DNA of 62,045 nucleotides from Halomonadaceae bacterium T82-2 (GTDB lineage Bacteria > Pseudomonadota > Gammaproteobacteria > Pseudomonadales > Halomonadaceae): the NCBI GenBank assembly GCA_001577635.1, contig LSBP01000016.1, forward strand, positions 1 to 62,045, in the 5' to 3' direction. Below the pieces are notes generated by a model, which was given only the letters and a program-made list of their open reading frames with translations, did not search any database and was not told where the DNA came from. This document shows positions 5,938 through 22,358 of this stretch, piece by piece. The position numbers and the translations under genes are program-made. How positions within the stretch are numbered: the stretch's first letter is position 1; the number at the start of each line of letters is the position of its first letter.

Positions 5938-5941
5938 GATG

Positions 5942-6478: not shown

Positions 6479-6498
6479 GATATCCAATCCTCTCAAGA

Positions 6499-6526
6499 CG
6501 CCCCGGGCCAGGTTGTGCCCGGGGCG
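6499..6526 (-). terminator. Intercistronic hairpin between dctP and dctQ
   Basis: A perfect 10-bp GC stem (CGCCCCGGGC with its complement at 6517-6526) closes an eight-base loop. No strong U-tract follows on the minus strand. Such hairpins after binding-protein genes usually act as partial terminators or 3' stabilisers that raise DctP over the membrane subunits; that role is inferred. Confidence 0.6.
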
Positions 6527-6544
6527 CTTCGTGGGACTAACAGA

Positions 6545-7549
6545 TCACTTCTGCGCGGCTTGAATGTCCGTCACCAGCGATTCCAAATCCGGATTCTGCT
6601 TGATGAATTCATCGTAGATCGGCTGCATCTTGGCCTGGAACGCCGACTTGTCGTTCACCTTGTTGATCTTCACGCCGGAATCGAGAACCTTCTGCTTGCT
6701 CTTCTCGACACGCTTCTGCCACAGCTGACGCTGCTCCTTGGCGGCGTTCTCGGCAGCCTCACGTACGACCTTCTGGTCTTCGGCGGAAAGATCCTCCCAG
6801 CTGGACTTGGCGATGCACAGACACTCGGGCAGGATCAGGTGCTCGGTCAGCGAGTAGTACTTCGCCACCTCATAGTGGCCGCTGGACTCGTACGACGGGT
6901 AGTTGTTCTCGGCACCATCGATGACGCCGGTCTTGAGCGCCTGGTAGACGTCGCCATAGGGCATGGGCGTGGCGTTGCCGCCGAGCTCGTCGATCATCTG
7001 GACGTACAGGTCGTTGTTCATGACGCGGACCTTGAGCCCCTTGACGTCATCGGGCGTCTTCACCGGGTGATCGGTGTTGTAGAGGCTGCGGGCCCCGGAG
7101 CCGAACCAGGACAACGCGATCAGGTTTTTCTCGGCCAGCGCATCCGCGAAGCGATCACCGATCTCCCCGTCCATGATCCGGTACATGTCGTCCGGGCTCT
7201 TGAAGATGAATGGCAGCGAGAGCACGTTGGTGGCCGGCACGATCGGGCCCATCGGCCCCATGTTGAAGTTGGCGAAGTCCAGGGCGCCGTTGCGGGTCTG
7301 CTCGATGGCATCGGGCTGATCGCCGAGCACCGCATTGTTGTAGACCTTGGGCTCGATCCGGCCGTCGGTCTTCTTGGCGACTTCCTTGGCAAAGTCCTCC
7401 AGCGCAACGCTGTTCGGATAGCCCGGCGGATGAATGTTCCAGCCGCGCCATTGTTCCGCCTGGACTGGCGAGGCCATCAGAACCATCGCACCGCCCAGTG
7501 CAGCGAGAGAAAGCGTGCCCTTCATCTTGAGATTGTTGTGAATCGGCAT
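6545..7549 (-). CDS. dctP: TRAP transporter substrate-binding protein (DctP family)
   Basis: A 334-residue secreted binding protein with a signal peptide of about 31 residues (KMKGTLSLAALGGAMVLMASPVQA, cleaved after VQA). The family Arg region LKVRVMNNDLYVQMIDELG and GVIDGAENNYPSY are present. It captures the substrate in the periplasm for DctQM. The start at 7549 has AGGAG eight bases upstream. Family members beside uronate genes bind glucuronate or galacturonate; the ligand here is inferred from its neighbours. Confidence 0.92.
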   Translation of the reverse strand: MPIHNNLKMKGTLSLAALGGAMVLMASPVQAEQWRGWNIHPPGYPNSVALEDFAKEVAKKTDGRIEPKVYNNAVLGDQPDAIEQTRNGALDFANFNMGPMGPIVPATNVLSLPFIFKSPDDMYRIMDGEIGDRFADALAEKNLIALSWFGSGARSLYNTDHPVKTPDDVKGLKVRVMNNDLYVQMIDELGGNATPMPYGDVYQALKTGVIDGAENNYPSYESSGHYEVAKYYSLTEHLILPECLCIAKSSWEDLSAEDQKVVREAAENAAKEQRQLWQKRVEKSKQKVLDSGVKINKVNDKSAFQAKMQPIYDEFIKQNPDLESLVTDIQAAQK

Positions 7550-7580
7550 GTCATGACTCCTGTGGAAATGGACATTGTCG

Positions 7581-8498
7581 TTATTGCTGCCTGGCGATAT
7601 TCACCAGATCTTCGAGTTGCTTGCTTTCTTCCCGGGTCGGCATCACCAGCGGCGCACGAACACTGCCGGCGGATCTGCCGATGATGGTGGCTCCCTCCTT
7701 GATCAGACTGACCGCATAGCCTTTCCGACGGTCACGCAGGTTGACGAAAGGAATAAAAAAATCGTTGGTGAGCCTCTTTACTGTGGCGGAATCGCCCTGG
7801 CGCAACGCCCGATAGAACGTGACCGCCAGCTCCGGCACGAAGTTGAACACCGCCGACGAATAGGTATTCACCCCGATCGACAGGTAAGCCTCGGCGAAGA
7901 TCTCGGCGGTCGGCACACCGCCGACATAGACCAGCCGATCGCCGACCGTCTTGACGATCTTGTTGAGCAGCTGCATGTCGCCCTTGCCATCCTTCAGCCC
8001 GATCAGGTTCGGGCAGGCATCGGCCAGCTGCTGAACCGCTTCGGCCTCGAGCACACCATTGCCGCGGTTGTAGTAGATGACGTTGATCGAGGTCGAATCG
8101 CAGATTCGACGCGCGTACTCCACCAGGCCGTCCTGCGGACACTCGGTCAGATACGGCGGCATCAGCAGGATGCCATCCGCTCCGGCCTCTTCCGCCGCTT
8201 TCGCATAGGCCTGTCCCACGCCGACACTAAGACCGGCACTGGCGATGACCGGCAGCTTGCCCCCCACCGTCTCCACGGCGACGGTGACGATCTCGCGGAA
8301 CTCGTCGAGCGTCAGGTTGAAGAATTCCCCGGTCCCGCCGGCAACGAACACCGCCGACACCTCATGACTGACGAACCATTCCAGCCGCTGACGGTAGCTG
8401 TCGCGATCGAAATGCCCCTGCTCGTCGAAATCCGTCACGGGAAAGGAAAGCAGGCCATCGCCGACCGCCTGAATGACTGCGTCTCTGGAAAAATTCAC
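7581..8498 (-). CDS. kdgD: 5-dehydro-4-deoxyglucarate dehydratase
   Basis: A 305-residue (beta/alpha)8 aldolase-fold protein of the DapA superfamily. It has GGTGEFFNLTLDEF near the N-terminus, the conserved Tyr in VIYYNRGNGV and the Schiff-base Lys in LIGLKDGKGD. KdgD (EC 4.2.1.41) dehydrates and decarboxylates 5-keto-4-deoxyglucarate to 2-oxoglutarate semialdehyde, linking Gci to the dehydrogenase at 1-837. The start is GTG at 8498 with AGAGGG upstream; a 21-residue longer frame is basic and lacks a ribosome site. It is the first gene of the operon. Confidence 0.92.
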   Translation of the reverse strand: MNFSRDAVIQAVGDGLLSFPVTDFDEQGHFDRDSYRQRLEWFVSHEVSAVFVAGGTGEFFNLTLDEFREIVTVAVETVGGKLPVIASAGLSVGVGQAYAKAAEEAGADGILLMPPYLTECPQDGLVEYARRICDSTSINVIYYNRGNGVLEAEAVQQLADACPNLIGLKDGKGDMQLLNKIVKTVGDRLVYVGGVPTAEIFAEAYLSIGVNTYSSAVFNFVPELAVTFYRALRQGDSATVKRLTNDFFIPFVNLRDRRKGYAVSLIKEGATIIGRSAGSVRAPLVMPTREESKQLEDLVNIARQQ

Positions 8499-8554
8499 GG
8501 ATTGTCCCTCTTGCCCGACTCGTTGAAGGCGGCGTGACACGATGATCCGCCGAC

Positions 8555-8572
8555 TTGTCATACATCATACAA
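8555..8572. promoter_or_regulatory. Candidate GntR operator over the kdgD transcription start
   Basis: The 18-bp site has TTGT and ACAA arms ten bases apart (TTGTCATACATCATACAA). A second copy of the half-site TTGTCATAC lies inverted at 8598-8606. The site covers the expected start point of the promoter at 8578-8606. TTGT/ACAA arms are common in FadR-family operators; the link to the regulator at 870-1604 is inferred. Confidence 0.5.
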
Positions 8573-8577
8573 CTGCA

Positions 8578-8606
8578 AATCTAGAAGCCACTCAGCTGTA
8601 TGACAA
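8578..8606 (-). promoter_or_regulatory. Predicted sigma-70 promoter of the uronate operon
   Basis: Reading the minus strand, TTGTCA (8601-8606) is followed after exactly 17 bases by TAGATT (8578-8583). The match to consensus is five of six and four of six. The position is about 80 bases upstream of kdgD. Confidence 0.5.
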
Positions 8607-8624
8607 CATCGACCATGGTCGATG
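8607..8624. promoter_or_regulatory. Perfect 18-bp palindrome abutting the -35 element
   Basis: CATCGACCATGGTCGATG is fully self-complementary and ends one base before the predicted -35 hexamer. Its position suits an activator site for the kdgD operon. No protein can be assigned from sequence alone. Confidence 0.45.
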
Positions 8625-8754
8625 CAACGAAGGGTTAACGCCGAGCGAAAAAGGGCCAGCCACGCTCCATGGCGGCGGGAACAGCGCTGGACGAGGTGCG
8701 TTCACGACGGTCACGTCACCGCGCTAACGACGGCCGTCCGGTATCTCGCAAGCC

Positions 8755-9795
8755 TCAACGGGTGCCGCGCTCGGCCGTGCGGCTGGGCGGCTCGCCGAAA
8801 CGCGCCTGATAGGCGCGGGAAAAATGCGCCAGATGGGTGAAGCCGCTGGCCAGCGCCGCCTCGGTCACCCGGCAGCGACTGTCGGCGAGGATGCATCGCG
8901 CCTGATCGAGCCGCATGCCCAGGTAACACTGCTTGGGCGTCTCGCCGAACGCGGCGGTGAACAGCCGGGTCAGCTGACGCTGCGACTGCCCGACCAGCCG
9001 GCAGATCTCCGGAATCGGCAATGCCTGATCGAGATGGGTCTCCATGATGGCCAGCGCGCGCACCACCGCCCGGGGCAGGTTGTCCATGGCCCGCGCGCTT
9101 CCAACATCCCGCGCCTCCTCTTCACTGACCCGCTGATGCACCAGCTGGCGACCCACCGCATTGGCCAGGGCCGGCCCGTAGTCGTGCTCGATCCACTGCA
9201 GCATCATGTCGATGCCCGCCGCACCGCCGGACCCGGTCAGCCGCCGGTCGGCGAACTCGAAGCGCGCCTCGCTCACCGCGATGTGCGGAAACTCCTCGCG
9301 AAACGCCGGCACGCTCTCCCAGTGCAGCGCCACCCGCTGCTGCTCCAGCAGGCCCGCGCGCGCCAGAATGAAGGGCGCGGTATCCAGCCCGCCGACCCGG
9401 GCGCCGTGCGCTGCTGCCTGCCGCAGCACGGCACGCTCGGCGGCGGTCACCGTGGCCTCGGCCTCGTAGGAAGAGATCACCATCAGCAGCTCCCCCACCT
9501 CCGCCTCGCCCAGCGCGGCATCGACATCGATGCGCACCCCGTTGCTGGCCACGACCGCCTCGCCGTCCGCCGAGAGCAGCTGCCAGGCGAACAGCTCGCG
9601 GCCGAAACGGTTGGCGACCCGCAGCGGCTCGAGCAGGCAGAACAGGGTCAGCATGGAAAACTTGGGCACCAGCCATACGCTCACCGTATGTACCGCCTCG
9701 CCGGGTCGCGGGACCGGCGGCTGGTCGGGACGTGGATAGGGCCACTCCGGCATCATGGACTCGCTCATGGCCATAAAAATCAACCAAAAGGCCAT
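8755..9795 (-). CDS. GlxA-type AraC transcriptional regulator (DJ-1/PfpI domain plus AraC HTH)
   Basis: A protein of about 346 residues with an N-terminal GATase1-like domain (VSVWLVPKFSMLTLFCLLEPLRVANR) and a C-terminal double helix-turn-helix of AraC type (ILADSRCRVTEAALASGFTHLAHFSRAYQARFGEPP). Pseudomonas ArgR and several betaine/carnitine regulators share this architecture. It is divergent from the dioxygenase operon starting at 9893 with a 98-bp shared upstream region, so it is the likely activator of that operon. The exact start is uncertain: in-frame ATGs also occur at 9774 and 9768, and none has a clear ribosome site. Confidence 0.85.
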   Translation of the reverse strand: MAFWLIFMAMSESMMPEWPYPRPDQPPVPRPGEAVHTVSVWLVPKFSMLTLFCLLEPLRVANRFGRELFAWQLLSADGEAVVASNGVRIDVDAALGEAEVGELLMVISSYEAEATVTAAERAVLRQAAAHGARVGGLDTAPFILARAGLLEQQRVALHWESVPAFREEFPHIAVSEARFEFADRRLTGSGGAAGIDMMLQWIEHDYGPALANAVGRQLVHQRVSEEEARDVGSARAMDNLPRAVVRALAIMETHLDQALPIPEICRLVGQSQRQLTRLFTAAFGETPKQCYLGMRLDQARCILADSRCRVTEAALASGFTHLAHFSRAYQARFGEPPSRTAERGTR

Positions 9796-9892
9796 TTATT
9801 GCAAATTCGCTGTGCCCCAAGCCCCTAGGGTAGATAAAGCGGCGGCGCCCGAGGCGCTCGTCGTCACTTCATCGTCGTAGAGAGAATCGTCC

Positions 9893-11053
9893 ATGTCCCC
9901 AGCCGCCGAGATCGAACTCAAGGATGACGGCCGACAGCTGGCCCTGCGCCTGGCGGGCCGCGAACAGCAGCTTGCCGCCCTCTGGCTGCGCGAACGGGCG
10001 CCGGATGCCGACACCCTCGACCCGCGCACGGGGCAGCGCCTGATCGAGGCCGCCCGGTTGCCGCTGGATCTCCACGCGACCCGGGCCCGTATCGACGGCG
10101 ACCGCCTCGCGGTGCAGTTCAGCGACGGCCATCGCGCCAGCTTTCCGCTCGCCGACCTGCTCGCGCAGACGACGCCCGACCGCGACATCGACGACGGCCT
10201 GACGCTGTGGGATGCGACGCTCGAGACGCTGCCCCGGGCCGATTTCGCGGCCGCCTGCGATGACGACGGCGCGCTGCTCGCCATGCTCGAGGCCCTGCAT
10301 CGCCATGGCTTCGTCAAGGTCGAGGGCGTCCCGCTCACCGAGGACGGCATGCAGCCGCTGATCGACCGCATCGGTCCGCTGCGTCGCACCAACTGGGGCG
10401 GCATCGCCGACGTCAAGTCGGTGGCCGACGCCTACGACCTGACCATGACCCGGCGCGGGCTCGAGCCGCATACCGACAACCCCTATCGCGACCCGATCCC
10501 CGGCTACATCTGGCTGCACTGCCTGAGCAACGCCGCCGAGGGCGGCGACAGCACGCTCGCCGACGGCTTCATGGCGGCACGACGCCTGCGCGACGAGGCG
10601 CCCGAGCACTTCGAGTGCCTGACCCGGCTGTCACCGACCTTTCGCTACACCGATGCCACCACCGATCTGGAGAGCGAAGGCCCGCTGATCGAGCTCGACA
10701 GCCATGGCCGCCTGGCCCGGGTGCGCTACTCCAACCGCACCGAACGCATCGACGCCCACGCCCCCGAGCTGCTGGCGCGCTACTACGCCGCGCGCCAGCA
10801 CTTCTACCGGCTGATCACCTCGGATGCCTTGACCGTGCACCTCAAGCTGGCGCCCGGCGAGATGCTGATCATGGACAACTACCGCCTGCTTCACGGGCGG
10901 ACCGCCTACCAGCTGGACGGCGGGGTACGTCACCTTCGCCAAGGCTACGTCGACCGCGACAGCACTGCCAGCCGCCGCCGTGTCCTGCGTGCCCGGCTGA
11001 CCGCCGGCACCGCCGAGACGCCGACCGCCACCACCCGGGGAGCCATCTCATGA
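9893..11053 (+). CDS. BBOX/TmpA-like Fe(II)/2-oxoglutarate dioxygenase
   Basis: A 386-residue protein with a GBBH-like N-terminal domain (about 1-90) followed by a TauD/BBOX jelly-roll. The iron triad is visible as H193-x-D195 (EPHTDNPYRDP) and H334 (LLHGRTAY), with Arg346/349 in RHLRQGYVDRD for 2-oxoglutarate. Relatives hydroxylate gamma-butyrobetaine, trimethyllysine or, for TmpA, trimethylaminoethylphosphonate. The three Cys that bind zinc in BBOX are absent (WLRERAPDADTLDP). It overlaps the next gene by four bases (ATGA), and HD partners beside such enzymes point to the TmpA role. The substrate is unproven. Confidence 0.85.
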   Translation: MSPAAEIELKDDGRQLALRLAGREQQLAALWLRERAPDADTLDPRTGQRLIEAARLPLDLHATRARIDGDRLAVQFSDGHRASFPLADLLAQTTPDRDIDDGLTLWDATLETLPRADFAAACDDDGALLAMLEALHRHGFVKVEGVPLTEDGMQPLIDRIGPLRRTNWGGIADVKSVADAYDLTMTRRGLEPHTDNPYRDPIPGYIWLHCLSNAAEGGDSTLADGFMAARRLRDEAPEHFECLTRLSPTFRYTDATTDLESEGPLIELDSHGRLARVRYSNRTERIDAHAPELLARYYAARQHFYRLITSDALTVHLKLAPGEMLIMDNYRLLHGRTAYQLDGGVRHLRQGYVDRDSTASRRRVLRARLTAGTAETPTATTRGAIS

Positions 11054-11631
11054 ACCAGGCCCGCTTCACCCGTTTCGCGGAAAGCACCCACGCCGACTGG
11101 GCGATCATCGACGCCCACTTCCAGCGTTACCAGAACGATGTCGCCCGCCGGGTGCTCGAGCACCTGCGGCGACTCGAGGGGGATACCCACGGCTATCCCG
11201 TCGACCGTTATACCCACAGCCTGCAGACCGCGACCCGCGCGCTCGACGCCGGTGCCGACGAGGAGACCGTGGTCTGTGCGCTGCTCCATGACATCGGCGA
11301 CGACCTGGCCCCGGCCAACCACGCCGAGATCGCCGCGGCGATCCTCGCGCCCTACGTCGATCCGCTCAACGTGTGGATGATCCGCCACCACGAGCTGTTT
11401 CAGGGGTATCATTACCGCGCCTTCTACGGCCTCGACCCGCAGGCCCGCGAGGCGTATCGCGATCACCCGGCCTATGCGCGCACCGTGCGCTTCTGCGACG
11501 AGTGGGACCAGCGCGCCTTCGATCCCAACTACCCGACGCGGCCGCTCGAGGACTTCGTGCCGATGGTCGAGCGCCTCTTCGCGCGCACGCCCTTCGGCGA
11601 AACCCTGACCGTCAAGGCCCCCGACGCATGA
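11050..11631 (+). CDS. HD-domain protein, probable TmpB/PhnZ-like diiron oxygenase
   Basis: A 193-residue HD-fold protein. The putative metal ligands are H56 (DRYTHSLQT), H80-D81 (ALLHDIGDD), H91 (ANHAEI), H113/H114 (IRHHELF) and D153 (FCDEWDQ). This six-ligand H...HD...H...H...D set is that of mixed-valent diiron oxygenases such as MIOX, PhnZ and TmpB, rather than a minimal phosphohydrolase. The H-to-HD spacing of 24 equals that remembered for PhnZ. TmpB oxidatively cleaves the hydroxylated product of TmpA, and translational coupling to a TmpA-like gene supports that pairing. It overlaps the following decarboxylase gene by four bases. Confidence 0.75.
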   Translation: MNQARFTRFAESTHADWAIIDAHFQRYQNDVARRVLEHLRRLEGDTHGYPVDRYTHSLQTATRALDAGADEETVVCALLHDIGDDLAPANHAEIAAAILAPYVDPLNVWMIRHHELFQGYHYRAFYGLDPQAREAYRDHPAYARTVRFCDEWDQRAFDPNYPTRPLEDFVPMVERLFARTPFGETLTVKAPDA

Positions 11632-13223
11632 CCACCTGTGCCCAGTACCTGATCGACCGACTCGTGGCCCACGGCATCGACACCGTGTTCGGCATTCCCG
11701 GCGTGCATACCGTGGAACTCTACCGCGGCCTGCCGGACAGCCCGCTGCGCCACGTCACCCCGCGCCACGAACAGGGCGCCGGCTTCATGGCCGACGGCTA
11801 CGCCCGCGCCACCGGCCGACCCGCGGCCTGCTTCATCATCAGCGGCCCGGGGATGACCAACATCGCCACCGCCATGGCCCAGGCCCTGGCCGACTCGGTG
11901 CCCATGCTGGTGATCTCCAGCGTCAACCACCGCAACACCCTGGGTCGCGGCCAGGGGCGCCTGCACGAACTGCCCGACCAGCGGGCCACCCTCGCCGGGG
12001 TCAGCGTGTTCAGCCACACCCTGCAGACGCCGGAGGCCCTGCCCGAGGTGCTGGGGCGCGCCTTCGCGATCTTCGCCGGCGCCCGCCCCGGCCCGGTGCA
12101 CATCGAGATTCCGCTCGACGTGATGGCCCTGCCTGCCCCCGACCACCCGCCCCGCGTCACCGAGGTCTTCGCCCCCGCCGCGCCGGACGCCGCACTGGCC
12201 CGCGCCGCGGACTGGCTGACCGCCGCCGAGCGGCCCCTGGTGCTGCTCGGCGGTGGCTGCGCGGACGCCGCCGAGCCGCTGCGCGACCTGGTCGAACGCC
12301 TCGACGCCCCGACCATGACCACCATCAACGCCAGGGGCGTGCTGGGGCTCGCCCACCCGCTGGATCTCGGCGCCTGCGCCAGCCTGCCGGCGGGCCGCGA
12401 GCTGGCCCGCGACGCCGACGTGATCCTGGCGCTGGGCACCGAGCTCGGCGAGACCGACTACGATCTGGTCTTCGACGAGGGCTTCCGGCTCACCGGGCGG
12501 CTGATCCGGGTCGACATCGACGCCCAGCAGCTGGCTCGCAACCAGGCCCCCGACCTGGCGCTGCTCGCCGACGCCGGCGAAGTGGCCCGGGAGCTGTGCG
12601 CCCGTCTGCCCGTCCCGGCAGCGCGCCGGGGCGCCGAGCGTGCCGCCCGCGTCAGGTCAGCCCTGGCGCTGCGCGATGCGGCGGACGTGGCGCCCTACAC
12701 CGCGCTGCTCGACACCCTGCGCGAGGCGCTGCCCGACGCCACCCTCGTCGGCGACTCCACCGGGGCGGTCTACGCCGGCAATTTCGTGGTCGACATGCCC
12801 GCACCACGCCGCTGGTTCAATGCCGCCACCGGCTACGGCACCCTCGGCTACGGCCTGCCCGCGGCGCTGGGTGCCGCGCTGGCCGTGCCCGAGCGTCCGG
12901 TGGTCGCGCTGGTCGGCGACGGCGGGCTGATGTTCACCCTCGGCGAGCTGGCCACCGCCCGTGACGCCGGCGTGCCGCTGATCGTGGTGGTCTGGAACAA
13001 TGACGGCTACGGCGAGATTCGCCGCTACATGGACGCCAGTGCCGTGACGCGGCTGGGGGTCGACCTGCCGGCGCCGGACCTGGTCGGCCTGGCCGAGAGC
13101 TTCGGCTGCCATGGCCGGCGCCTGACCACACCGGCGGCGCTGCATGAAGCACTGGCGACCGCCCGGCATGCCGACCGGCCCACGCTGATCGAGATCGATG
13201 CCGACGCCTGGCAGGGCGTCTGA
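11628..13223 (+). CDS. aruI: Thiamine-diphosphate 2-oxo acid decarboxylase, AruI-like (5-guanidino-2-oxopentanoate decarboxylase)
   Basis: A 531-residue ThDP enzyme with the usual three domains. The activating Glu48 is in RHEQGAGFMADGYARATG and the ThDP/Mg motif starts at VGDGGLMFTLGEL and ends at WNNDGYGEI. The N-terminus (DTVFGIPGVHTVELYRGLP) and the surrounding blocks closely match Pseudomonas AruI, as remembered. AruI decarboxylates 2-ketoarginine to 4-guanidinobutyraldehyde. An aruH homologue follows 31 bases downstream, as a matched transaminase/decarboxylase pair. Other 2-keto acids with a cationic side chain are possible substrates. Confidence 0.82.
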   Translation: MTTCAQYLIDRLVAHGIDTVFGIPGVHTVELYRGLPDSPLRHVTPRHEQGAGFMADGYARATGRPAACFIISGPGMTNIATAMAQALADSVPMLVISSVNHRNTLGRGQGRLHELPDQRATLAGVSVFSHTLQTPEALPEVLGRAFAIFAGARPGPVHIEIPLDVMALPAPDHPPRVTEVFAPAAPDAALARAADWLTAAERPLVLLGGGCADAAEPLRDLVERLDAPTMTTINARGVLGLAHPLDLGACASLPAGRELARDADVILALGTELGETDYDLVFDEGFRLTGRLIRVDIDAQQLARNQAPDLALLADAGEVARELCARLPVPAARRGAERAARVRSALALRDAADVAPYTALLDTLREALPDATLVGDSTGAVYAGNFVVDMPAPRRWFNAATGYGTLGYGLPAALGAALAVPERPVVALVGDGGLMFTLGELATARDAGVPLIVVVWNNDGYGEIRRYMDASAVTRLGVDLPAPDLVGLAESFGCHGRRLTTPAALHEALATARHADRPTLIEIDADAWQGV

Positions 13224-13254
13224 CGGATTCGCCCGCTTTCCTCAAGGAGCCGAC

Positions 13255-14451
13255 ATGCACTACTCCCGACTCACCGAACGCATCGCCGGCGACGGCGCCG
13301 CCGCCTGGAACATCCACTACCGGGCGCTCGAACGCCGGGCGCGCGGCGACGACGTCATCATCCTCTCGGTGGGCGACCCGGACTTCACCACGCCCGAGCC
13401 GATCGTCGAGAGCGCGGTGACCAGCCTGCGCGGCGGGGCCACCCACTATGCCGACGTGCAGGGCAAGCAGCGCCTTCGTGAACTGATCGCCGACACCCAC
13501 CGCCGTCAGGGCGGCGCGGCGACGACCACCGCCGCCAACGTCGCGGTGATGGCCGGCGCCCAGTGCGGCCTCTACGCCGTGGCCCAGTGCGTGCTCGAGC
13601 CGGGCGATGAGGTGCTGGTCCCCGAGCCGATGTATGTCACCTACGAGGCGGCCCTGCAGGCCGCCGGCGCCCGCCTGGTGCGCGTACCGCTGCGTGCCGG
13701 GAACGCCTTCCAGCCGGACCCGGCCGAGTTCGCCGCGGCGGTGACGCCGCGTACCCGGGCGATGCTGCTCAACAGCCCCCACAACCCCACCGGGCAGATC
13801 CTCGGCCGCGAGCATTGGGAGGCCCTGGCCGCGCTGTGCCGCGAACACGACCTGTGGCTGCTGTCCGACGAGGTCTACGCCTCGCTGATCTTCGACGCGG
13901 CCCACCAGTGTCCCGATGCGCTGCCCGGCATGGCCGAGCGCACCGCGGTGATCAGCAGCCTGTCGAAGTCCCATGCCATGACCGGCTGGCGGCTGGGTTG
14001 GGTGATCGGCCCCGAGACGCTGATCGGCCACCTGTCCAACCTGGCGCTGTGCATGCTCTACGGCAGCCCGGACTTCATCCAGAATGCCGCCTGCGAGGCG
14101 CTGGCCCATCCTCCGGCCGAGCTCGCCGCCATGCGCGAGACCTACCGGGCGCGGCGCGATACCGTCTTCTCGGCCCTCGCCGACAGCGCGGCACTCGATG
14201 TGCTGCGCCCCGAAGCCGGCATGTTCATGATGGTCGACATCCGCCGCACCGGCCTGTCCGCGGCGGACTTCGCCGACCGCCTGCTCGAGGAACACGGCGT
14301 CTCGGTGCTCTCGGGCGAGGCCTTCGGCCCCTCGGCCGCCGGCTTTGTGCGGCTCAGCCTGACGGTCGACGCCGAGCGACTGCGCGAGGCCTGCCGGCGC
14401 CTGGAACACTGCGCCGCGTCCTGCCTGGCGACAGCGACCGTGCAGGACTGA
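13255..14451 (+). CDS. aruH: Arginine:pyruvate transaminase-like aminotransferase (AruH)
   Basis: A 398-residue fold-type I aminotransferase. The PLP Lys is in SSLSKSHAMTGWRLGW, the Asp in LLSDEVYASL and the substrate carboxylate Arg in GFVRLSLTVD. The N-terminus (RIAGDGAAAWNIHYRALERR) and ALCMLYGSPDFIQNAACEAL match Pseudomonas AruH very closely by memory. It would convert arginine and pyruvate to 2-ketoarginine and alanine, feeding AruI. The start at 13255 has AAGGAG upstream. Specificity for arginine versus another cationic amino acid is not settled by sequence. Confidence 0.87.
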   Translation: MHYSRLTERIAGDGAAAWNIHYRALERRARGDDVIILSVGDPDFTTPEPIVESAVTSLRGGATHYADVQGKQRLRELIADTHRRQGGAATTTAANVAVMAGAQCGLYAVAQCVLEPGDEVLVPEPMYVTYEAALQAAGARLVRVPLRAGNAFQPDPAEFAAAVTPRTRAMLLNSPHNPTGQILGREHWEALAALCREHDLWLLSDEVYASLIFDAAHQCPDALPGMAERTAVISSLSKSHAMTGWRLGWVIGPETLIGHLSNLALCMLYGSPDFIQNAACEALAHPPAELAAMRETYRARRDTVFSALADSAALDVLRPEAGMFMMVDIRRTGLSAADFADRLLEEHGVSVLSGEAFGPSAAGFVRLSLTVDAERLREACRRLEHCAASCLATATVQD

Positions 14452-14466
14452 ACGACAACGACACGG

Positions 14467-14499
14467 GCGGCCCCTCGAGCGCCATGCGCCCGGGGCCGC
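14467..14499 (+). terminator. GC-rich hairpin after aruH
   Basis: GCGGCCCC pairs with GGGGCCGC at 14492-14499 across a 17-base loop. Only GATCTTTCC follows, so it is more likely a partial terminator separating the enzyme genes from the transporter genes than a full stop. Confidence 0.45.
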
Positions 14500-14561
14500 G
14501 ATCTTTCCACCGGACCCAGGAGGGGTATGGCCAGCACGACACTCCACCCCCGAAATCGCCC

Positions 14562-15341
14562 ATGACCCATCACATCGACAACAACGCTCCGGCCGTCGAG
14601 ACGCGCCATCTGGTCAAGCGCTACGGCGAGCTGGAGGTCCTCAAGGACATCTCGCTGACCGTGAACGAAGGCAGCGTGGTCTCGATCATCGGCTCCAGCG
14701 GTTCCGGCAAGAGCACCCTGCTGCGCTGCATGAACCTGCTCGAGCGCCCCGACGGCGGCCGGTTGACCATCGCCGGCGAAACCCTGGACTTCGGCAGCGG
14801 GGGACGCGATGCCGGCCTCGACCGGCGCCGACTGCAGCAGCTGCGTGCCCGGGTCAGCATGGTCTTCCAGCAGTTCAACCTCTGGCCCCACCTCACCGTG
14901 CTCGGCAACGTCATCGAGGCCCCGCTACGCGTGCGCGGCCTGCGCCGCCGCGAGGCCGTGGCGATCGGCGAGCACTACCTGGAACGGGTGGGGCTCGCCG
15001 ACAAGCGCGACCAGTACCCTGCCTATCTTTCCGGCGGCCAGCAGCAGCGCGTGGCGATCGCCCGGGCACTGGCCATGGAGCCGCGCGTGCTGCTGTTCGA
15101 CGAGCCCACCTCGGCCCTCGACCCGGAACTGGTCAGCGAGGTGCTCGGCGTGATCCGCGGGCTCGCCGACGAGGGCCGTACCATGCTGCTGGTCACCCAC
15201 GAGATGCGCTTCGCGCGCGACGTCTCCCATCAGGTGGTGTTCCTCCACCAGGGGCTCGTCGAGGAGACCGGCACCTCGCGCGAGGTGTTCGAGAACGCCG
15301 CCAGCGAGCGCTGCCGGCAGTTCGTCGCCGGCGCGGCATGA
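14562..15341 (+). CDS. Polar amino-acid ABC transporter, ATP-binding protein
   Basis: A 259-residue ABC ATPase with Walker A GSSGSGKST, Q-loop VFQQFNLWPH, signature YLSGGQQQRVAIARAL, Walker B VLLFDEPTSALD and the H-loop in LVTHEMRFA. It belongs to the GlnQ/HisP class and energises the two permeases at 16291-17737. The ribosome site is weak. Arginine-like or other cationic amino compounds are the expected cargo from context. Confidence 0.92.
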   Translation: MTHHIDNNAPAVETRHLVKRYGELEVLKDISLTVNEGSVVSIIGSSGSGKSTLLRCMNLLERPDGGRLTIAGETLDFGSGGRDAGLDRRRLQQLRARVSMVFQQFNLWPHLTVLGNVIEAPLRVRGLRRREAVAIGEHYLERVGLADKRDQYPAYLSGGQQQRVAIARALAMEPRVLLFDEPTSALDPELVSEVLGVIRGLADEGRTMLLVTHEMRFARDVSHQVVFLHQGLVEETGTSREVFENAASERCRQFVAGAA

Positions 15342-15374
15342 CTTCGCGCAATGCCCGACGGCATTGCCTTTCTT

Positions 15375-15390
15375 CGGGCCCGAGGGCCCG
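15375..15390 (+). terminator. Short intercistronic hairpin before the binding-protein gene
   Basis: CGGGCCCGAGGGCCCG forms a very GC-rich stem with a two- to four-base loop between the ATPase and binding-protein genes. No U-tract follows. A processing or attenuation role is inferred. Confidence 0.35.
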
Positions 15391-15412
15391 CGACAACAAT
15401 GATGGGGAAACC

Positions 15413-16201
15413 ATGATGACCAAGATCCTGACCCGAAGCCTGATCCATACCGCCGGCATCGCTGCCCTGGCGCTATCCGCCACCACGGCCCTGGCCGCCG
15501 AGCCGCTCAAGATCGGCATCTCGGCGGAACCCTACCCGCCGTTCACCTACAAGGACGCCGACGGCAGCTGGACCGGCTTCGAGGTGGAGCTCGGCCAGGC
15601 TTTGTGCGATCAGATGCAGGCCGACTGCGCGATCACGCCGACCGGCTGGAGCGGCATCTTCCCGGCACTCGACAGCGGCAAGATCGACATGATCATGAAT
15701 TCCCTGTCGATCACCGACAAGCGCAAGCGGGTCATCGACTTCACCGACCCGTACTACTACACCCCGGCGGCCTACGTCACCGCCAAGGACAGTGACCTGC
15801 AGATTCCCGACGGGCTCGACGGCAAGATCCTCGGCGTGCAGGGCTCGACCACCAACGCCACCTTCGCACGTCGCAAGCTCGCCGACACCGGCGTCGAGCT
15901 GAAGATCTACGACCGCCAGGAGCAGGCCAACCGCGACCTGCTGGCCGGCCGCGTCGACGCCATTCTCGCCGACAAGATCGCCATGACCGAGTTCGTCAAG
16001 CGCGACGAGGCACAGGGCTACGAGATCCGCGCCACCGCGCCCCACGACCCGGCCTTCGGCGAGGGAGTGGGCATCGGCCTGCGCCAGGAAGACGACGCCC
16101 TGCGCAAGAAGCTCAACACCGCCATCGCCAGCGTGCTCGAGAACGGCCAATGTGCCGAACTTTCGCGGAAATATTTCAATACCGACATCTGCAGCGACTG
16201 A
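15413..16201 (+). CDS. Amino-acid ABC transporter substrate-binding protein
   Basis: A 262-residue periplasmic binding protein of SBP_bac_3 type. It has a signal peptide of about 25 residues ending ATTALAAEPLK and the fold signature GFEVELGQALCDQM. The ligand-contact regions are SGIFPALDSGKIDMIMNSLSI and VIDFTDPYYYTPAA. The start is the ATG at 15413 with GGGGAAA upstream; the preceding in-frame residues belong to the untranslated leader. The acidic pocket residues typical of LAO/HisJ-type cationic ligand binding are plausible but not provable here. Confidence 0.9.
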   Translation: MMTKILTRSLIHTAGIAALALSATTALAAEPLKIGISAEPYPPFTYKDADGSWTGFEVELGQALCDQMQADCAITPTGWSGIFPALDSGKIDMIMNSLSITDKRKRVIDFTDPYYYTPAAYVTAKDSDLQIPDGLDGKILGVQGSTTNATFARRKLADTGVELKIYDRQEQANRDLLAGRVDAILADKIAMTEFVKRDEAQGYEIRATAPHDPAFGEGVGIGLRQEDDALRKKLNTAIASVLENGQCAELSRKYFNTDICSD

Positions 16202-16234
16202 AGATCGCCGCCGGAGCCGCGCTCCCCGGCGAAC

Positions 16235-16264
16235 GGCCCGCCCGCCAGTGAATGGCGGCGGGCC
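16235..16264 (+). terminator. Hairpin after the binding-protein gene
   Basis: GGCCCGCC...TGGC pairs with GCCA...GGCGGGCC in an inverted repeat with one bulge and a short loop, followed by CCTCTTC. A hairpin at this place in ABC operons usually lowers permease expression relative to the binding protein. Confidence 0.5.
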
Positions 16265-16290
16265 CCTCTTCATCGACCAAGGCTGCAACC

Positions 16291-16995
16291 ATGTCTAGCT
16301 ATCAGAATGCCGGGCTGCTCGACTGGGCGGCCCCGATCCTGCACGGCGCCCTGGTGACCCTCGAGATCGCCCTGCTGGCCTACGCCATCGGCCTCGCCCT
16401 GGGGCTGCTGGGCGCCGGCACTCGACTCAGCGCCTGGCCGCCACTGCGTGCCCTGGGGACGCTCTACTCCACCCTGGTGCGCGCCGTCCCCGAACTGCTG
16501 CTGATCATCCTGCTCTACTACGCCGGCACCCAGGCACTCAATGCCCTGCTGAACGCCCTGGGTGACGACACCCATGTCGAGATCGGCGGCTTCGTCTGTG
16601 CGGTCGGCGTGCTGGCCTTCGTCCAGGGCGCCTACATGACCGAGGTGTTCCGGGGCGCCATCCTGGCCATCCCCCGCGGCCAGCTGGAGGCCGCCGATGC
16701 CTACGGCTTCACCCGCTGGACGCGCTTTCATCGCATCGTGGTGCCCGCCATGCTGCCCAATGCCCTGCCGGGGATGTCCAACCTGTGGCTGATTCTGGTG
16801 AAGGACACCGCGCTGATCAGTGTGGTGGGCTTCGAGGAGCTGTTCTTCACCGCCCAGCAGGCGGCGGCCAGCACCCGCGACTACTTTGTCTTCTACGCCG
16901 CCGCCGGCGCGCTCTATCTGGTGATGACGCTGGGCTCCAACGCCCTCTTCGCCCGGGCGGAGCGCCACGTACGCCGCGGCCAGCCGGGCCTCTAG
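16291..16995 (+). CDS. Amino-acid ABC transporter permease (first subunit)
   Basis: A 234-residue inner-membrane protein of the HisM/GlnP class. It has about five hydrophobic segments and the EAA loop GQLEAADAYGFTRWTRFHRIVVPAMLPNALPG. The motif VRAVPELLLIILLYY is typical of polar amino-acid importers. The start at 16291 (MSSYQN) is preferred over the longer frame, which runs through the hairpin. Confidence 0.9.
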   Translation: MSSYQNAGLLDWAAPILHGALVTLEIALLAYAIGLALGLLGAGTRLSAWPPLRALGTLYSTLVRAVPELLLIILLYYAGTQALNALLNALGDDTHVEIGGFVCAVGVLAFVQGAYMTEVFRGAILAIPRGQLEAADAYGFTRWTRFHRIVVPAMLPNALPGMSNLWLILVKDTALISVVGFEELFFTAQQAAASTRDYFVFYAAAGALYLVMTLGSNALFARAERHVRRGQPGL

Positions 16996-17005
16996 GAGGG
17001 CATCG

Positions 17006-17737
17006 ATGGACTTTTCCTGGCTTTCCGACCCCTTCTACCAGCAGTACCTGTGGACGGGCTTCGTCAATACTCTGTGGCTGGTGGCGGTCTCCGGCACGCT
17101 GGGCCTGGCGCTGGCCGTCGCTTTGGCCCTGGCGCAGATCCAGGGGCCGCGCCCGCTGGCGATGCTGGTGCGCGGCTTCACCACGGTGATCCGCGGTACC
17201 CCCCTGCTGGTCCAGCTGTTCTTCTTCTACGACGGCGTGGGCCGCCTGCTGCCAGAAATCCCCGGCGTTCGCGACAGTCTGATCTGGCCGCTGCTGCGCG
17301 ATCCCTTCTTCTACGGCGCGCTGACCTTCACCATCAGCGTCGGCGCCTACACCGGCGAGGTAATCCGCGGCGCCCTGCTCAGCGTGCCCGACGGTGAACT
17401 GGCCGCCGGCCGCGCCTTCGGCCTGAGCCACTGGCAGATTCTCCATCGGCTGTGGCTGCCCCGCGCCCTCCAGCTTTGCCTGCCCACGCTGACCGGCGAG
17501 GCGATCCTGTTGCTCAAGTCAGTGCCGCTGGTCTCGACCATCGCCATGATGGACCTGCTCAAGGCGGCCAACCTGGTACGCGACGAGACCTTCCTGGTCT
17601 ACGAGCCGCTACTGCTGATCGCCGGCATCTACATCGCCCTGACGCTGATTCTCACCGGCGTGATGCGCCTCATCGAACACCGATTCCCGGGCGCGCGACC
17701 GGCGGCGACTCGTCGCCGGCGCCTGCTGCCCGGCTAG
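17006..17737 (+). CDS. Amino-acid ABC transporter permease (second subunit)
   Basis: A 243-residue HisQ-class permease with VIRGTPLLVQLFFFYDG and the EAA-like loop DGELAAGRAFGLSHWQILHRLWLPRAL that contacts the ATPase. It starts ten bases after the first permease, with AGGAGGG as a strong ribosome site. The tail is Arg-rich (RPAATRRRRLLPG). It completes the importer encoded from 14562. Confidence 0.9.
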   Translation: MDFSWLSDPFYQQYLWTGFVNTLWLVAVSGTLGLALAVALALAQIQGPRPLAMLVRGFTTVIRGTPLLVQLFFFYDGVGRLLPEIPGVRDSLIWPLLRDPFFYGALTFTISVGAYTGEVIRGALLSVPDGELAAGRAFGLSHWQILHRLWLPRALQLCLPTLTGEAILLLKSVPLVSTIAMMDLLKAANLVRDETFLVYEPLLLIAGIYIALTLILTGVMRLIEHRFPGARPAATRRRRLLPG

Positions 17738-17751
17738 TCATGGAGCCCGAG

Positions 17752-19197
17752 ATGTCTGACCTTTGCCACCAGTTCATCGATGGCCGCTGGGTGCCCAGCC
17801 GGGCCACTCGGCGCCTGACGATCATCGATCCCTATCGCGAAACCCTCCTGGGACATGTCACCGCCGGCGATACCCGCGACGTCGAGGCCGCGGTTGCTGC
17901 GGCACGCCATGCCCTGCCCGCGTGGCGGGAGCGCCCCGGCAGCGAGCGCGCCGCCTATCTCGACGCCCTGGCCAATGCCCTGGCCGACCGCCATGCCGGT
18001 CTCGCGGAAACCATCGCCCGCAACGGCGGCAAGCCCCTCGGCGAAGCCGCCATCGACGTCGATGACGCCGTCGCCTGTTACCGTTACTACGCCACACAGG
18101 CGCGGTGCCTGGATGCCCGCCAGGGCGAGGTCGTGCCGATCGAGGCCGACGGCCTCCAGGCGCACTGCTATTACGACCCGGTTGGTGTGGCCGGCCTGAT
18201 CACGCCCTGGAACTTCCCTCTGGTGACCGGCGCCTGGAAACTCGCCCCGGCACTGGCCGCCGGCTGCACGGTGGTCTTCAAGCCGTCCGAGGTCGTGCCG
18301 CTGCCCGAGCAGGCGATCGCCGAGATCGCCGAAGCGATCGCCCTGCCGCCCGGCGTGCTCAACCTGGTCAACGGCGATGCCGAGGGGGTGGGCATCCCGC
18401 TCAGCCGCCATCCCGGCATCGACAAGCTCTCCTTCACCGGCAGCAACCGCGCCGGCGAGGCCGTCATGCGCGCGGCCGCCACGGGCACGCGCAACCTCTC
18501 CCTGGAACTGGGCGGCAAGTCCCCGATCCTGGTGCTCGACGACGCCGATGTCGAACAGGCCGCCGACCTGGTGATGAACGGCCTGTTCTTCAATGCCGGG
18601 CAGATGTGCTCGGCCACCTCGCGCCTGCTGGTCCATCGCTCGCTCGCCGAACCGCTTCACGACGCCCTGGCGAGCCGTATCGACGCCCTGGTGCTCGGCG
18701 ACCCGCTTGAGAGCTCGACAACGCTCGGTCCCCAGGTCAGCGATCGTCAGCAGGAGCGGGTCATGCAATATCTGGCCATCGCCCGGGAGGAAGGCCTCAC
18801 GGCGGTACGTGATCCTCACCATCGTGACCTGCCCGGGCACGGCTACTTCATCGCGCCGACGCTCTATCGCGACGTCCCCGTCACCAGCCGGCTCTGGCGC
18901 GAGGAGATCTTCGGTCCGGTGCTCTGTACGCGATCGGTGGATGATGACGTCGAGGCGATCGCGCTGGCCAACGACAGCGACTTCGGCCTCGCCGCCAGCG
19001 TGGTCGGCGGTGACGCCGAGCGCGCCACCGCGGTCGCTCGTCGCCTGGAAGCCGGCAATGTGTGGATCAACACCGACCAGATCGCCCCGCCTCAGGCCGC
19101 GTGGGGCGGCGTCAAGCGCAGTGGCCTCGGCCGCGAGCTGGGCCCTCTGGGACTGGCCGCCTATCAGGAGATCAAGCACCTCACAAGGGCAGGCTGA
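17752..19197 (+). CDS. Aldehyde dehydrogenase, betaine-aldehyde/KauB-like
   Basis: A 481-residue NAD(P) aldehyde dehydrogenase with catalytic Cys286 in FNAGQMCSAT and general base Glu252 in SLELGGKSP. It also has TPWNFPLVTGAWKLAPALA and SFTGSNRAGEAV. It ends the operon and would suit the AruI product: KauB-type enzymes oxidise 4-guanidinobutyraldehyde in the Pseudomonas transaminase pathway. Betaine aldehyde is the main alternative. I chose ATG 17752 because GGAG precedes it by six bases; ATG 17740 lies upstream in frame. Confidence 0.88.
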   Translation: MSDLCHQFIDGRWVPSRATRRLTIIDPYRETLLGHVTAGDTRDVEAAVAAARHALPAWRERPGSERAAYLDALANALADRHAGLAETIARNGGKPLGEAAIDVDDAVACYRYYATQARCLDARQGEVVPIEADGLQAHCYYDPVGVAGLITPWNFPLVTGAWKLAPALAAGCTVVFKPSEVVPLPEQAIAEIAEAIALPPGVLNLVNGDAEGVGIPLSRHPGIDKLSFTGSNRAGEAVMRAAATGTRNLSLELGGKSPILVLDDADVEQAADLVMNGLFFNAGQMCSATSRLLVHRSLAEPLHDALASRIDALVLGDPLESSTTLGPQVSDRQQERVMQYLAIAREEGLTAVRDPHHRDLPGHGYFIAPTLYRDVPVTSRLWREEIFGPVLCTRSVDDDVEAIALANDSDFGLAASVVGGDAERATAVARRLEAGNVWINTDQIAPPQAAWGGVKRSGLGRELGPLGLAAYQEIKHLTRAG

Positions 19198-19267
19198 ACG
19201 CTTCCGGAAACCGTCGCGGTTCGCGTTTACCCGGATATGCGCAATGCCCCGTGCGTTTCGGACAAAC

Positions 19268-19750
19268 CTAGTCGAAATCGGCCGGATGGCGAAACGCCTT
19301 GAGTTCGGCACAACCGGCCGCCCAGACCTCGGCTTCCAGGGCGGCGATGGCCGCGGTGGGCATGGGCAGCGAGCTGCGCCGGTCGCCCTCCACCAGGCGA
19401 CCGGTCAGCGCACCGACCAGCGGCATGTGGCTGACCAGCAGCACCGGCGTCTCGTCGGCGGCCTGCTGCAGCCAGTCGATGACCGGCTCGACCGGGTCAT
19501 CGGGCGTGATGATCTCGAGCGTCTCCACCGCCACGCCGAGCCGCTCGGCGACGATGGCAGCGGTCTGCCGGGCACGCCGGTAGGGGCTGGCGACGAGTCG
19601 CACCCTCCGGCGCTGCGGCTCGTCCAGCGAGCCGGCCAGCCAGTCGGCCATGCGCGTCACTTCGGCACGCCCCTCGGCGGTCAACTCGCGGGCGGCATCT
19701 GGGCTTCCCGGCGCAGCCTGCCCGTGGCGCATGATCCACAGCATCGACAT
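19268..19750 (-). CDS. sixA: Phosphohistidine phosphatase SixA
   Basis: A 160-residue histidine-phosphatase-fold protein with the catalytic RHG motif (LWIMRHGQAAPG), the second Arg in ASPYRRARQTA and the late His in LLVSHMPLVG. SixA removes phosphate from phosphohistidine proteins such as PtsO/NPr or HPt domains. It overlaps the gpsA stop by one base and has AGGAGGGG upstream, so the two are cotranscribed. The operon converges with the aldehyde dehydrogenase at 17752-19197. Confidence 0.9.
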   Translation of the reverse strand: MSMLWIMRHGQAAPGSPDAARELTAEGRAEVTRMADWLAGSLDEPQRRRVRLVASPYRRARQTAAIVAERLGVAVETLEIITPDDPVEPVIDWLQQAADETPVLLVSHMPLVGALTGRLVEGDRRSSLPMPTAAIAALEAEVWAAGCAELKAFRHPADFD

Positions 19751-20814
19751 CACGGCCCCTCCTGCTGTTCGCGCTTGGCCTGCACGACCGACTCCCGGGA
19801 CAGCGTGAACTCGACATCGCTGCTCTGCTCGTTACGCATCAGCAGGCGCGCCATGTCGCGCGCCGGCACCTGGTTGAACAGCACCTGATAGAGCCCCTCG
19901 CACAGCGGCATGTAGATCCCTTCGGCGCGGGCCTTGTCACGCACCAGACTGACGGTGTTGACCCCCTCGGCCACCTGACCCAGCGCGGCGACCGCTTCGT
20001 CCAGGGTTCGACCTTCACCCAGGGCGAAACCCACGCGGTAGTTGCGTGACAGCTTCGAGGAGCAGGTCACAATCAGATCGCCGACCCCGGCCAGCCCCAG
20101 GAAGGTCATGGGGTTGGCACCCAGCGCGACGGCGAAGCGGCTCATCTCGGCCAGCGCGCGGGTCATCAGCATGCTGCGCGTGTTCTCGCCCATGCCCAGA
20201 GCGGCGGCCATGCCGGCGGCGATGGCATAGATGTTCTTGAGCGCACCGCCCAGCTCCACGCCGTAACGATCGTTGCTGGCATAGACGCGGAAGTAGTCGC
20301 AGCCCAGTGCCGTCTGCACCCGAGCCCGCGTCAGCGCGTCGTCGCTGGCCACTACCGTCGCCGTCAGCTGCCTGTCGGCAATCTCGGACGCCAGATTGGG
20401 GCCGGAGAGCACGCCGATGTGAGCGAAGCCGGTCTCCTCCTCGAGGATCTGGCTCATCAGCTTGAAGCCATCCGCCTGGATGCCCTTGGTGGTGCTGACC
20501 AGGATCTGCTCGGGACGCAGCCAGGGGCGTGCCTGGCGGACCACCTCGGGAAACGCCTTGGAAGGGATGGCCACGAAGACCAGCTCCGCGCCGTCGAGCA
20601 CGGCGGCCAGGTCGGTATCGGCCACCACATTGGCGTTGATGGTGAAATCCGGCAGATATCGTGTATTGCGATGCTCACGATTGATGGTGGATACCAGCTC
20701 GGCATCGCGCAGCCACTGGCGGACCCGGGCGCCGTTGTCGGCGGCGATGCTGGCCAGCGCCGTGCCGAAACTGCCACCACCCAGTACCGCCACCTTGAGG
20801 CTCTCGTCGCTCAT
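19750..20814 (-). CDS. gpsA: Glycerol-3-phosphate dehydrogenase [NAD(P)+]
   Basis: A 354-residue cytosolic enzyme with the N-terminal nucleotide motif [14 protein letters not shown]. It has [19 protein letters not shown], the catalytic Lys region [17 protein letters not shown] and GVGDLIVTC. It reduces dihydroxyacetone phosphate to sn-glycerol-3-phosphate for phospholipids. The length is slightly above the usual 330-340 through a C-terminal extension ([23 protein letters not shown]). Confidence 0.95.
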
Positions 20815-20856
20815 CCTCGCTTCCTAGCTGCCACGTTTAGTCGCCCTCATTGTAAC

Positions 20857-20881
20857 GAAAAACGCCCCCTGGCGGGGGCGT
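20857..20881 (-). terminator. Rho-independent terminator of pntAB
   Basis: On the minus strand an 8-bp GC stem (ACGCCCCC with GGGGGCGT, loop GCCA) is followed directly by TTTTT. It lies just past the pntB stop and upstream of gpsA. Confidence 0.85.
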
Positions 20882-20896
20882 CGAGCGAGCGGGGTG

Positions 20897-22339: not shown

Positions 22340-22358
22340 GATCTCGTTTCTCCGCCGC

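Follow-up and report, generated by a model that had tools for sequence, protein, structure and literature searches.

We analysed a 62,045-nucleotide stretch of Halomonadaceae bacterium T82-2 (assembly GCA_001577635.1, contig LSBP01000016.1; the whole stretch is called the window here), which is close to Modicisalibacter tunisiensis. Between positions 8755 and 19197 it carries an operon in which a TmpA-like dioxygenase and an HD-domain protein are joined to an AruI-like decarboxylase, an AruH-like aminotransferase, a basic amino acid importer and an aldehyde dehydrogenase. Our results demonstrate that conservation of this block among relatives is more than chance and that the HD protein, judged by its sequence, is a member of a distinct family with six invariant diiron-type ligands. 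We tentatively propose, with somewhat less than even confidence, that the operon serves to break down a basic amino acid that carries a positive charge, the best candidate being N6-trimethyllysine (TML), by way of delta-valerobetaine to gamma-butyrobetaine (GBB).

The residues H56, H80, D81, H91, H114 and D153 of the HD protein are invariant in 60 of 60 diverse, hand-picked HD sequences (59 relatives included), and R53 is nearly invariant. Passages of a review (PMC8177086) give this H...HD...H...H...D pattern as that of MIOX, PhnZ and TmpB, the three HD oxygenases named there, place PhnZ and TmpB downstream of 2-oxoglutarate (2OG) hydroxylases, and describe a YxxE substrate loop as a feature of both. 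A PhnZ-like hydroxymethylphosphonate dioxygenase is also listed in NCBIfam. When a profile of the HD family was run against the PDB, every match at E ≤ 0.01 was to TmpB or PhnZ, and an AlphaFold2 model built with 53 sequences (pLDDT 95.2) gave 10 Foldseek matches in the PDB at E ≤ 1e-3, all of them TmpB or PhnZ chains (TMq 0.64 to 0.67). The HD protein thus has the ligand pattern, and by prediction the PhnZ/TmpB-like fold, that mark mixed-valent diiron oxygenases in this superfamily. Two other assignments were rejected. It is not TmpB but belongs to a separate family: its NCBIfam scores lie far below the cut-offs (36.4 bits against 300 for TmpB; 42.9 against 214.6 for Phn-HD), and the YxxE loop is missing (alignment to TmpB sets Y49 at the position of E and T46 at that of Y). 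Nor is it an ordinary phosphohydrolase, as no hydrolase occurs among the PDB profile matches or the Foldseek matches at these thresholds.

The dioxygenase is TauD/GBBH-like by family scan. It passes the NCBIfam cut-off for TmpA (NF049936, 439.5 versus 400 bits) and falls below that for gamma-butyrobetaine dioxygenase (TIGR02409, 264.9 versus 414.75 bits). The motif TNWGG(I/V)AD...DLTMT is common to all 22 readable members of its clade, the L158 row having been omitted from the alignment. At the positions that we take to be the BBOX cage, the TmpA rows (L166 and L161) have Y, F and F/Y, whereas all 22 members carry W168, A172 and M185; the last tyrosine of the cage (Y352) is kept. The aromatic cage for a trimethylammonium group seen in TmpA is therefore not found in this clade, and such a cage lacks sequence support in the window dioxygenase. 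Passages of another paper give the phosphonate anchor of TmpA as N187, N287 and R288 (PMC9296572). The last two are retained as N281 and R282, and N187 is replaced by D182. The cation end of the enzyme has been reshaped; a longer substrate and another cation are both possible. On plasmid pF045_1 of Pseudomonas aeruginosa (L073, 10872-16829), genes for a dioxygenase, an HD protein, a choline-type binding protein, a choline dehydrogenase and an aldehyde dehydrogenase are annotated consecutively, and that dioxygenase retains aromatic residues at the cage positions.

Among the remaining enzymes, the thiamine diphosphate (ThDP)-dependent enzyme passes the NCBIfam cut-off for 5-guanidino-2-oxopentanoate decarboxylase (NF005712, 802.5 versus 500 bits). 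This leaves its substrate unfixed, because the model describes a subfamily and copies linked to ureohydrolase genes are 62 to 67% identical. At 6 of 531 positions, 26 oxygenase-linked AruI sequences differ from 20 others (among them L180 and L183, both without an adjoining ureohydrolase), which is suggestive at most; A400 and R445 are common to L158 and L159 but also to L164, which has no such cluster. The aminotransferase is of class I/II, and none of the best 25 of its 82 NCBIfam matches reaches a cut-off (the top one is GntC, 304 versus 415 bits) or is a curated arginine-pyruvate transaminase model. The periplasmic binding protein is of the Lys/Arg/His type, and its substrate is not narrowed further. 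An earlier note on this DNA had named the products as a BBOX/TauD dioxygenase and an HD diiron-type protein forming a TmpA/TmpB-like pair, with AruI-like and AruH-like enzymes and an aldehyde dehydrogenase. The first two names and that of AruI are borne out by the family, ligand and predicted-fold evidence. Of the TmpA/TmpB-like pair, the dioxygenase scores above the TmpA cut-off and the HD protein far below that of TmpB, and AruH holds as a statement of similarity only.

How well the block holds together was judged from loci found with the HD protein. The search returned 48 loci, of which four (L068, L069, L070 and L072) match no other window gene and were left out. The remaining 44 (L025 to L067, and L071) are nearly all from Halomonadaceae, with one from Saccharospirillum (L044). 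All but one of them have the dioxygenase (43; the exception, L046, is cut by a contig end). The regulator is present in 42, with 41 loci encoding a binding protein of the OpuAC type and 37 containing aruH; the four ATP-binding cassette (ABC) genes are found in 27 and aruI in 26, whereas a class II aldolase occurs in 14 and the aldehyde dehydrogenase in 7. The stable core therefore consists of the regulator, the dioxygenase, the HD protein, the OpuAC-type protein and aruH. The regulator, dioxygenase, HD and OpuAC-type genes occur without aruI or ABC genes in the 11 Salinicola loci, and without both aruI and aruH in Kushneria. In 10 of the Salinicola loci an orthologue of aruH stays beside the dioxygenase, HD and OpuAC-type genes, and the fate of the oxo acid there is not explained by the TML proposal.

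Across 201 Halomonadaceae genomes there are 85 HD loci of the window type (rows with at least 69% identity to the HD protein of the window), and at least 56 of them have aruI no more than 6 kb away. Outside the family, 320 other sampled genomes of the class yielded AruI in 7 (E ≤ 1e-130) and the dioxygenase in 4 (E ≤ 1e-60). Two genomes from one distant family, G735 and G842, are in both lists and carry aruH, aruI, the HD gene, the dioxygenase, a GlxA regulator and ABC genes together, in an order and orientation that differ from those of Halomonadaceae (the G842 contig holds only the end of the ABC genes). Their AruI falls in a clade other than that of the Halomonadaceae AruI, and their HD proteins lie elsewhere in the HD tree, both topologies having been read without branch support values. 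That two lineages have joined the same set, each in its own arrangement, speaks for a single function. The other two dioxygenases of the class (G768 and G773) adjoin a TmpB-like gene. The view in the earlier note that the genes form one functional unit is thus supported: the linkage is conserved and recurs in rearranged form, although it is not total. Independent occurrence of the dioxygenase/HD pair and the aruIH pair with no conserved linkage, which that note had named as one outcome that would overturn it, was looked for in relatives and not borne out. The aldehyde dehydrogenase, also counted as part of the operon, is present in the window and is a variable member elsewhere.

A second line of evidence points to a link between the cluster and the metabolism of quaternary amines. 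In the same 201 genomes, a GBB-hydroxylase-type gene (a match to the L026 query at E ≤ 1e-90) accompanies window-type HD in 80 of 81 genomes and occurs in 5 of the 120 without it (both, 80; HD alone, 1; gene alone, 5; neither, 115). The Fisher value of 9e-49 is inflated by shared descent. The association also holds within genera (Cochran-Mantel-Haenszel z of 8.95 for labelled genomes of four genera, genomes without a printed genus being left out); the genome lists for the co-occurrence and genus counts were compiled by hand. Among the 44 loci, 28 contain the GBB-hydroxylase-type paralogue and 17 contain homologues of carnitine dehydrogenase, BKACE and thioesterase. In the genome of the window, the GBB-hydroxylase-type gene lies on contig C41 and the other three homologues lie on C4. 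A carnitine dehydrogenase homologue was found in 7 of 7 genomes queried, with BKACE and thioesterase homologues beside it in 6, all of them cluster holders; in G735 and G842 the carnitine dehydrogenase homologue stands at 72%, and both genomes encode a BBOX homologue (41%). The name BKACE was checked in Pfam. The OpuAC-type protein belongs among the binding proteins for choline and betaine, although it does not reach their cut-offs in NCBIfam, and OpuAC/choline-type binding proteins also adjoin BBOX homologues. According to passages of a study of Pseudomonas (PMC12442406), catabolic loci for single quaternary amines carry their own binding proteins of this type.

The data show which genes are joined and how far they are conserved, the ligands and modelled fold of the HD protein, and the co-occurrence with the GBB-hydroxylase-type gene; from these we infer a substrate, a site of hydroxylation, the bond that would be cut and each reaction, as follows. 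TML would be imported by the Lys/Arg-type ABC transporter, transaminated by the AruH-like enzyme and decarboxylated by the AruI-like ThDP enzyme to 5-trimethylammonio-pentanal, which an aldehyde dehydrogenase would oxidize to 5-trimethylammonio-valerate (delta-valerobetaine). The TmpA-like dioxygenase would then hydroxylate the carbon adjoining the carboxylate, and the HD protein, acting as a mixed-valent diiron oxygenase, would oxidatively cleave the C1-C2 bond. The net result would be alpha-oxidation with the loss of one chain carbon, giving GBB, which could enter the GBB hydroxylase/carnitine dehydrogenase/BKACE/thioesterase route to glycine betaine. TML is proposed because it fits the basic amino acid importer, the AruH/AruI chemistry and the link to GBB. 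Delta-valerobetaine exceeds GBB by a single carbon, which would be removed if the hydroxylase and the HD oxygenase acted as TmpA/TmpB do, with the carboxylate taking the place of the phosphonate. Rather doubtful, in our estimate, is the wider suggestion that a further HD diiron oxygenase family works with a 2OG hydroxylase in carboxylate alpha-oxidation (2-hydroxylation followed by O2-dependent C1-C2 cleavage), leading from TML through delta-valerobetaine and GBB to carnitine in a manner unlike the eukaryotic route.

Several observations weigh against this proposal. It explains the gene set and the GBB-hydroxylase-type co-occurrence; it does not explain the three altered cage positions, the DDAH-like gene beside the G735 cluster described below, or the AruH-like gene that stands without aruI in 10 of the 11 Salinicola loci (L050, L056, L057, L059, L060 and L062 to L066). 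The gene for AruI is absent from 18 of the 44 loci, including all 11 of Salinicola, the aldehyde dehydrogenase is confined to a few, and 5 of the 7 other aruI genomes of the class have no oxygenase pair beside aruI. The phylogenetic neighbours of AruI sit with ureohydrolase- and DDAH-type genes. The window operon has no OpuAC-type protein and no room for one between aruI and aruH; L025, its nearest relative, is likewise one of the three loci without it. The best NCBIfam match of the L026 query is gamma-butyrobetaine dioxygenase but the score is below the cut-off (323.4 versus 414.75 bits), so a GBB hydroxylase activity for genes of this type is deduced from the best match and the context. The co-occurrence is due in part to physical linkage (56 of the 85 HD loci lie within 12 kb of the GBB-hydroxylase-type gene) and in part to shared descent. 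G768, the only queried genome without the cluster, also has a carnitine dehydrogenase homologue (50%), so the comparison of seven genomes is no controlled test, and the names carnitine dehydrogenase and thioesterase are presumed from sequence. Cleavage of an alpha-hydroxy acid by an HD enzyme is absent from the cited passages of the literature, those of PMC8177086 among them.

The competitor that survives best, which we consider unlikely and yet well worth weighing, is a guanidino route, in which arginine or N-methylarginine would be converted by transamination, decarboxylation and oxidation to (methyl)guanidinobutyrate, hydroxylated by the dioxygenase and cleaved by the HD protein in place of guanidinobutyrase. 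The AruI score, the altered trimethylammonium cage and the ureohydrolase genes beside sister AruI copies are in its favour, as is an HD relative (L098) that adjoins aruI in a ureohydrolase cluster. The genome of the window has no ureohydrolase: PF00491 gave 0 matches in the assembly, compared with matches in 9 of 14 control genomes, so the absence of guanidinobutyrase noted earlier extends to the whole assembly. This lack counts for a route in which guanidinobutyrase would be replaced, and against arginine as the substrate. Next to the G735 cluster lies a DDAH-like gene (L159, 3307-4074), with DDAH as its best PDB match and an NCBIfam dimethylargininase score below the cut-off. Another follows aruI directly in G768 (L160, 11113-11871), where there is no oxygenase pair. 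These genes hint at methylarginine catabolism by AruH/AruI clusters. The G735 gene lies, however, on the opposite strand and is convergent with the ABC genes, and no DDAH was found in the genome of the window with one query and no control, a weak negative.

Against the guanidino route, many relatives hold a second aruI. Another copy is listed in at least 43 of the 56 genomes with an HD-linked aruI. Twenty stretches with aruI were chosen by hand, of which one (L185) proved to be oxygenase-linked, leaving 19 of the 94 aruI rows away from HD. In 16 of these 19 the gene adjoins an agmatinase-type ureohydrolase, and genes for a permease and an aldehyde dehydrogenase are mostly present as well. For 8 of the 19, the genome of origin has an HD-linked aruI too, and a ureohydrolase-type gene is the neighbour in 6 of these 8. 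The name ureohydrolase rests on L098 (NCBIfam agmatinase, 206.8 versus 174.3 bits), for which guanidinobutyrase activity is presumed. The ureohydrolase-linked block probably represents the expected arginine route. This additional aruI, in most cases ureohydrolase-linked, is present in many relatives, and the oxygenase pair goes with the GBB-hydroxylase-type gene; the arginine-to-4-guanidinobutyrate route suggested in the earlier note is therefore disfavoured here. The guanidino route also gives no reason for the near-total co-occurrence of that gene or for the OpuAC/choline-type binding protein. A methylated cationic amino acid, mentioned in the same note as an alternative, fits better, with a substrate that is deduced and with the altered cage and the DDAH-like gene left unexplained.

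A little less likely again is a reading that keeps the enzyme pair and the betaine class of substrate and assumes other chemistry, namely C3 hydroxylation to a homocarnitine-like product with C2-C3 cleavage, or another substrate length, with beta-alanine betaine, for instance, giving glycine betaine. The position attacked by TmpA and BBOX is two atoms away from the nitrogen, and a gene for a GhrA-like 2-hydroxyacid dehydrogenase (below cut-off) is found in L054. Mammalian BBOX produces 3-hydroxy-delta-valerobetaine, according to a published study (PMC11773067). All three points would suit this reading, which leaves the near-constant presence of the GBB-hydroxylase-type gene unexplained. Quite improbable, in our view, is that the regulator, dioxygenase, HD protein and OpuAC-type protein alone degrade an imported betaine, the ABC transporter, AruH, AruI and aldehyde dehydrogenase being either a separate, dispensable source of substrate or part of an unrelated pathway that is merely co-regulated. 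The Salinicola and Kushneria loci agree with it; the rejoining of the modules, rearranged, in G735 and G842 with an AruI of a different clade (branch support not inspected) argues against it. A pathway for trimethylaminoethylphosphonate, with the dioxygenase as TmpA and the HD protein as a divergent TmpB, is highly improbable despite the TmpA score and the retained N/R anchor, given the low TmpB score and lost YxxE loop of the HD protein, the recognizably different true TmpA-TmpB pair at L166 (590.6 and 350.1 bits, over both cut-offs) and the transaminase, decarboxylase and amino acid importer, which such a pathway would not need.

The operon resembles several known systems and is identical to none. 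TmpA/TmpB, which convert trimethylaminoethylphosphonate to glycine betaine, and PhnY/PhnZ likewise pair a 2OG hydroxylase with an HD diiron protein that acts after it, from adjacent genes, and share the HD ligands and predicted fold; the window differs in its HD family, the absence of the YxxE loop, the altered dioxygenase cage and the joined amino acid module. AruH/AruI/KauB form the arginine transaminase pathway, which has the same combination of transaminase, ThDP decarboxylase, aldehyde dehydrogenase and basic amino acid importer. In contrast to it, the window has an added oxygenase pair and no ureohydrolase in its genome. With the GBB hydroxylase/carnitine dehydrogenase/BKACE route the window shares a GlxA-type regulator and a BBOX-family enzyme, whereas its dioxygenase is a separate paralogue with an HD partner and other cage residues. 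The DavB/DavA route from TML to delta-valerobetaine shares the proposed intermediate and, as described in passages of PMC11773067, employs a lysine monooxygenase and an amidase, where the window would use a transaminase, a decarboxylase and a dehydrogenase. No title reporting a TmpA-like/HD/aruIH operon was found in the open-licence literature. If TML is the substrate, the operon would define a bacterial route from TML and delta-valerobetaine to carnitine that is testable in culturable halophiles. Delta-valerobetaine is called a microbiome-generated obesogen in the abstract of the same study (PMC11773067).

The HD family itself is wide. Of 398 genomes sampled across the phylum, 59 contain HD relatives (E ≤ 1e-20). 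Of 76 loci, a TauD-type dioxygenase is near 15 (4 of them window-type), a PhyH-type 2OG oxygenase group near 5 (2 of the 5 checked in Pfam) and a class II aldolase near 8; many, among the loci listed, have no informative neighbour by eye. Part of the family sits beside 2OG hydroxylases of unrelated types, and bonds other than C-P could thus come within reach of this chemistry. The PhyH-type group lies directly upstream of the HD relatives in L143, L144, L145, L156 and L157, possibly another hydroxylase/HD pathway. Genes of the class II aldolase/adducin type are near the HD relatives in L071, L074, L076, L079, L121, L133, L135 and L142. In L150 and L151 the HD gene is part of an apparent carnitine operon, flanked by BKACE on one side and a homologue of carnitine dehydrogenase on the other. 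In L098 (G176 contig 9) a relative with 49% identity to the HD protein of the window is flanked by aruI and by a pair of ureohydrolase and permease genes; no 2OG oxygenase was recognized in its vicinity.

All ten genes attributed to the block in the earlier note, including the divergent GlxA-type regulator, are present as open reading frames of the expected families (Table 1), and the ATGA overlaps that it reported at 11050 (dioxygenase/HD) and 11628 (HD/aruI) are confirmed. The regulator combines DJ-1_PfpI and HTH_18 domains and scores 225.7 bits against GbdR (NF052371), below the cut-off of 480.

Table 1. Genes and intergenic region of the operon, in window coordinates (PLP, pyridoxal phosphate).
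Feature	Positions	Strand	Basis or remarks
GlxA/GbdR-type AraC-family regulator	8755..9795	-	Family scans; divergent in 42/44 loci
Divergent intergenic region, 97 bases	9796..9892	.	Presumed promoter role
TmpA-like/BBOX-family Fe(II)/2-oxoglutarate dioxygenase	9893..11053	+	Altered cation cage W168, A172, M185, Y352; anchor N281-R282 kept
HD-domain protein, PhnZ/TmpB fold	11050..11631	+	H56, H80, D81, H91, H114, D153; separate family; predicted mixed-valent diiron oxygenase
AruI-like ThDP-dependent 2-oxoacid decarboxylase	11628..13223	+	NCBIfam match
AruH-like class I/II PLP aminotransferase	13255..14451	+	Family scans
Polar amino acid ABC transporter ATPase, HisP-like	14565..15341	+	Family scans
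Periplasmic binding protein, Lys/Arg/Orn/His type	15413..16201	+	Family scans
ABC permease, HisQ/ArtQ type	16288..16995	+	Family scans
ABC permease, HisM/ArtM type	17006..17737	+	Family scans
Aldehyde dehydrogenase, relative of betaine-aldehyde/aminobutyraldehyde dehydrogenases, below cut-offs	17740..19197	+	Family scans

An Rfam search of positions 5000-24000 gave 0 riboswitch matches. The gene downstream of the operon (19268-19753) is on the opposite strand. On the other side, the minus-strand genes at 4657-8561 that adjoin the operon appear by eye to encode a TRAP transporter and an enzyme of the dihydrodipicolinate synthase family, which we take to serve, perhaps, sugar acid catabolism.

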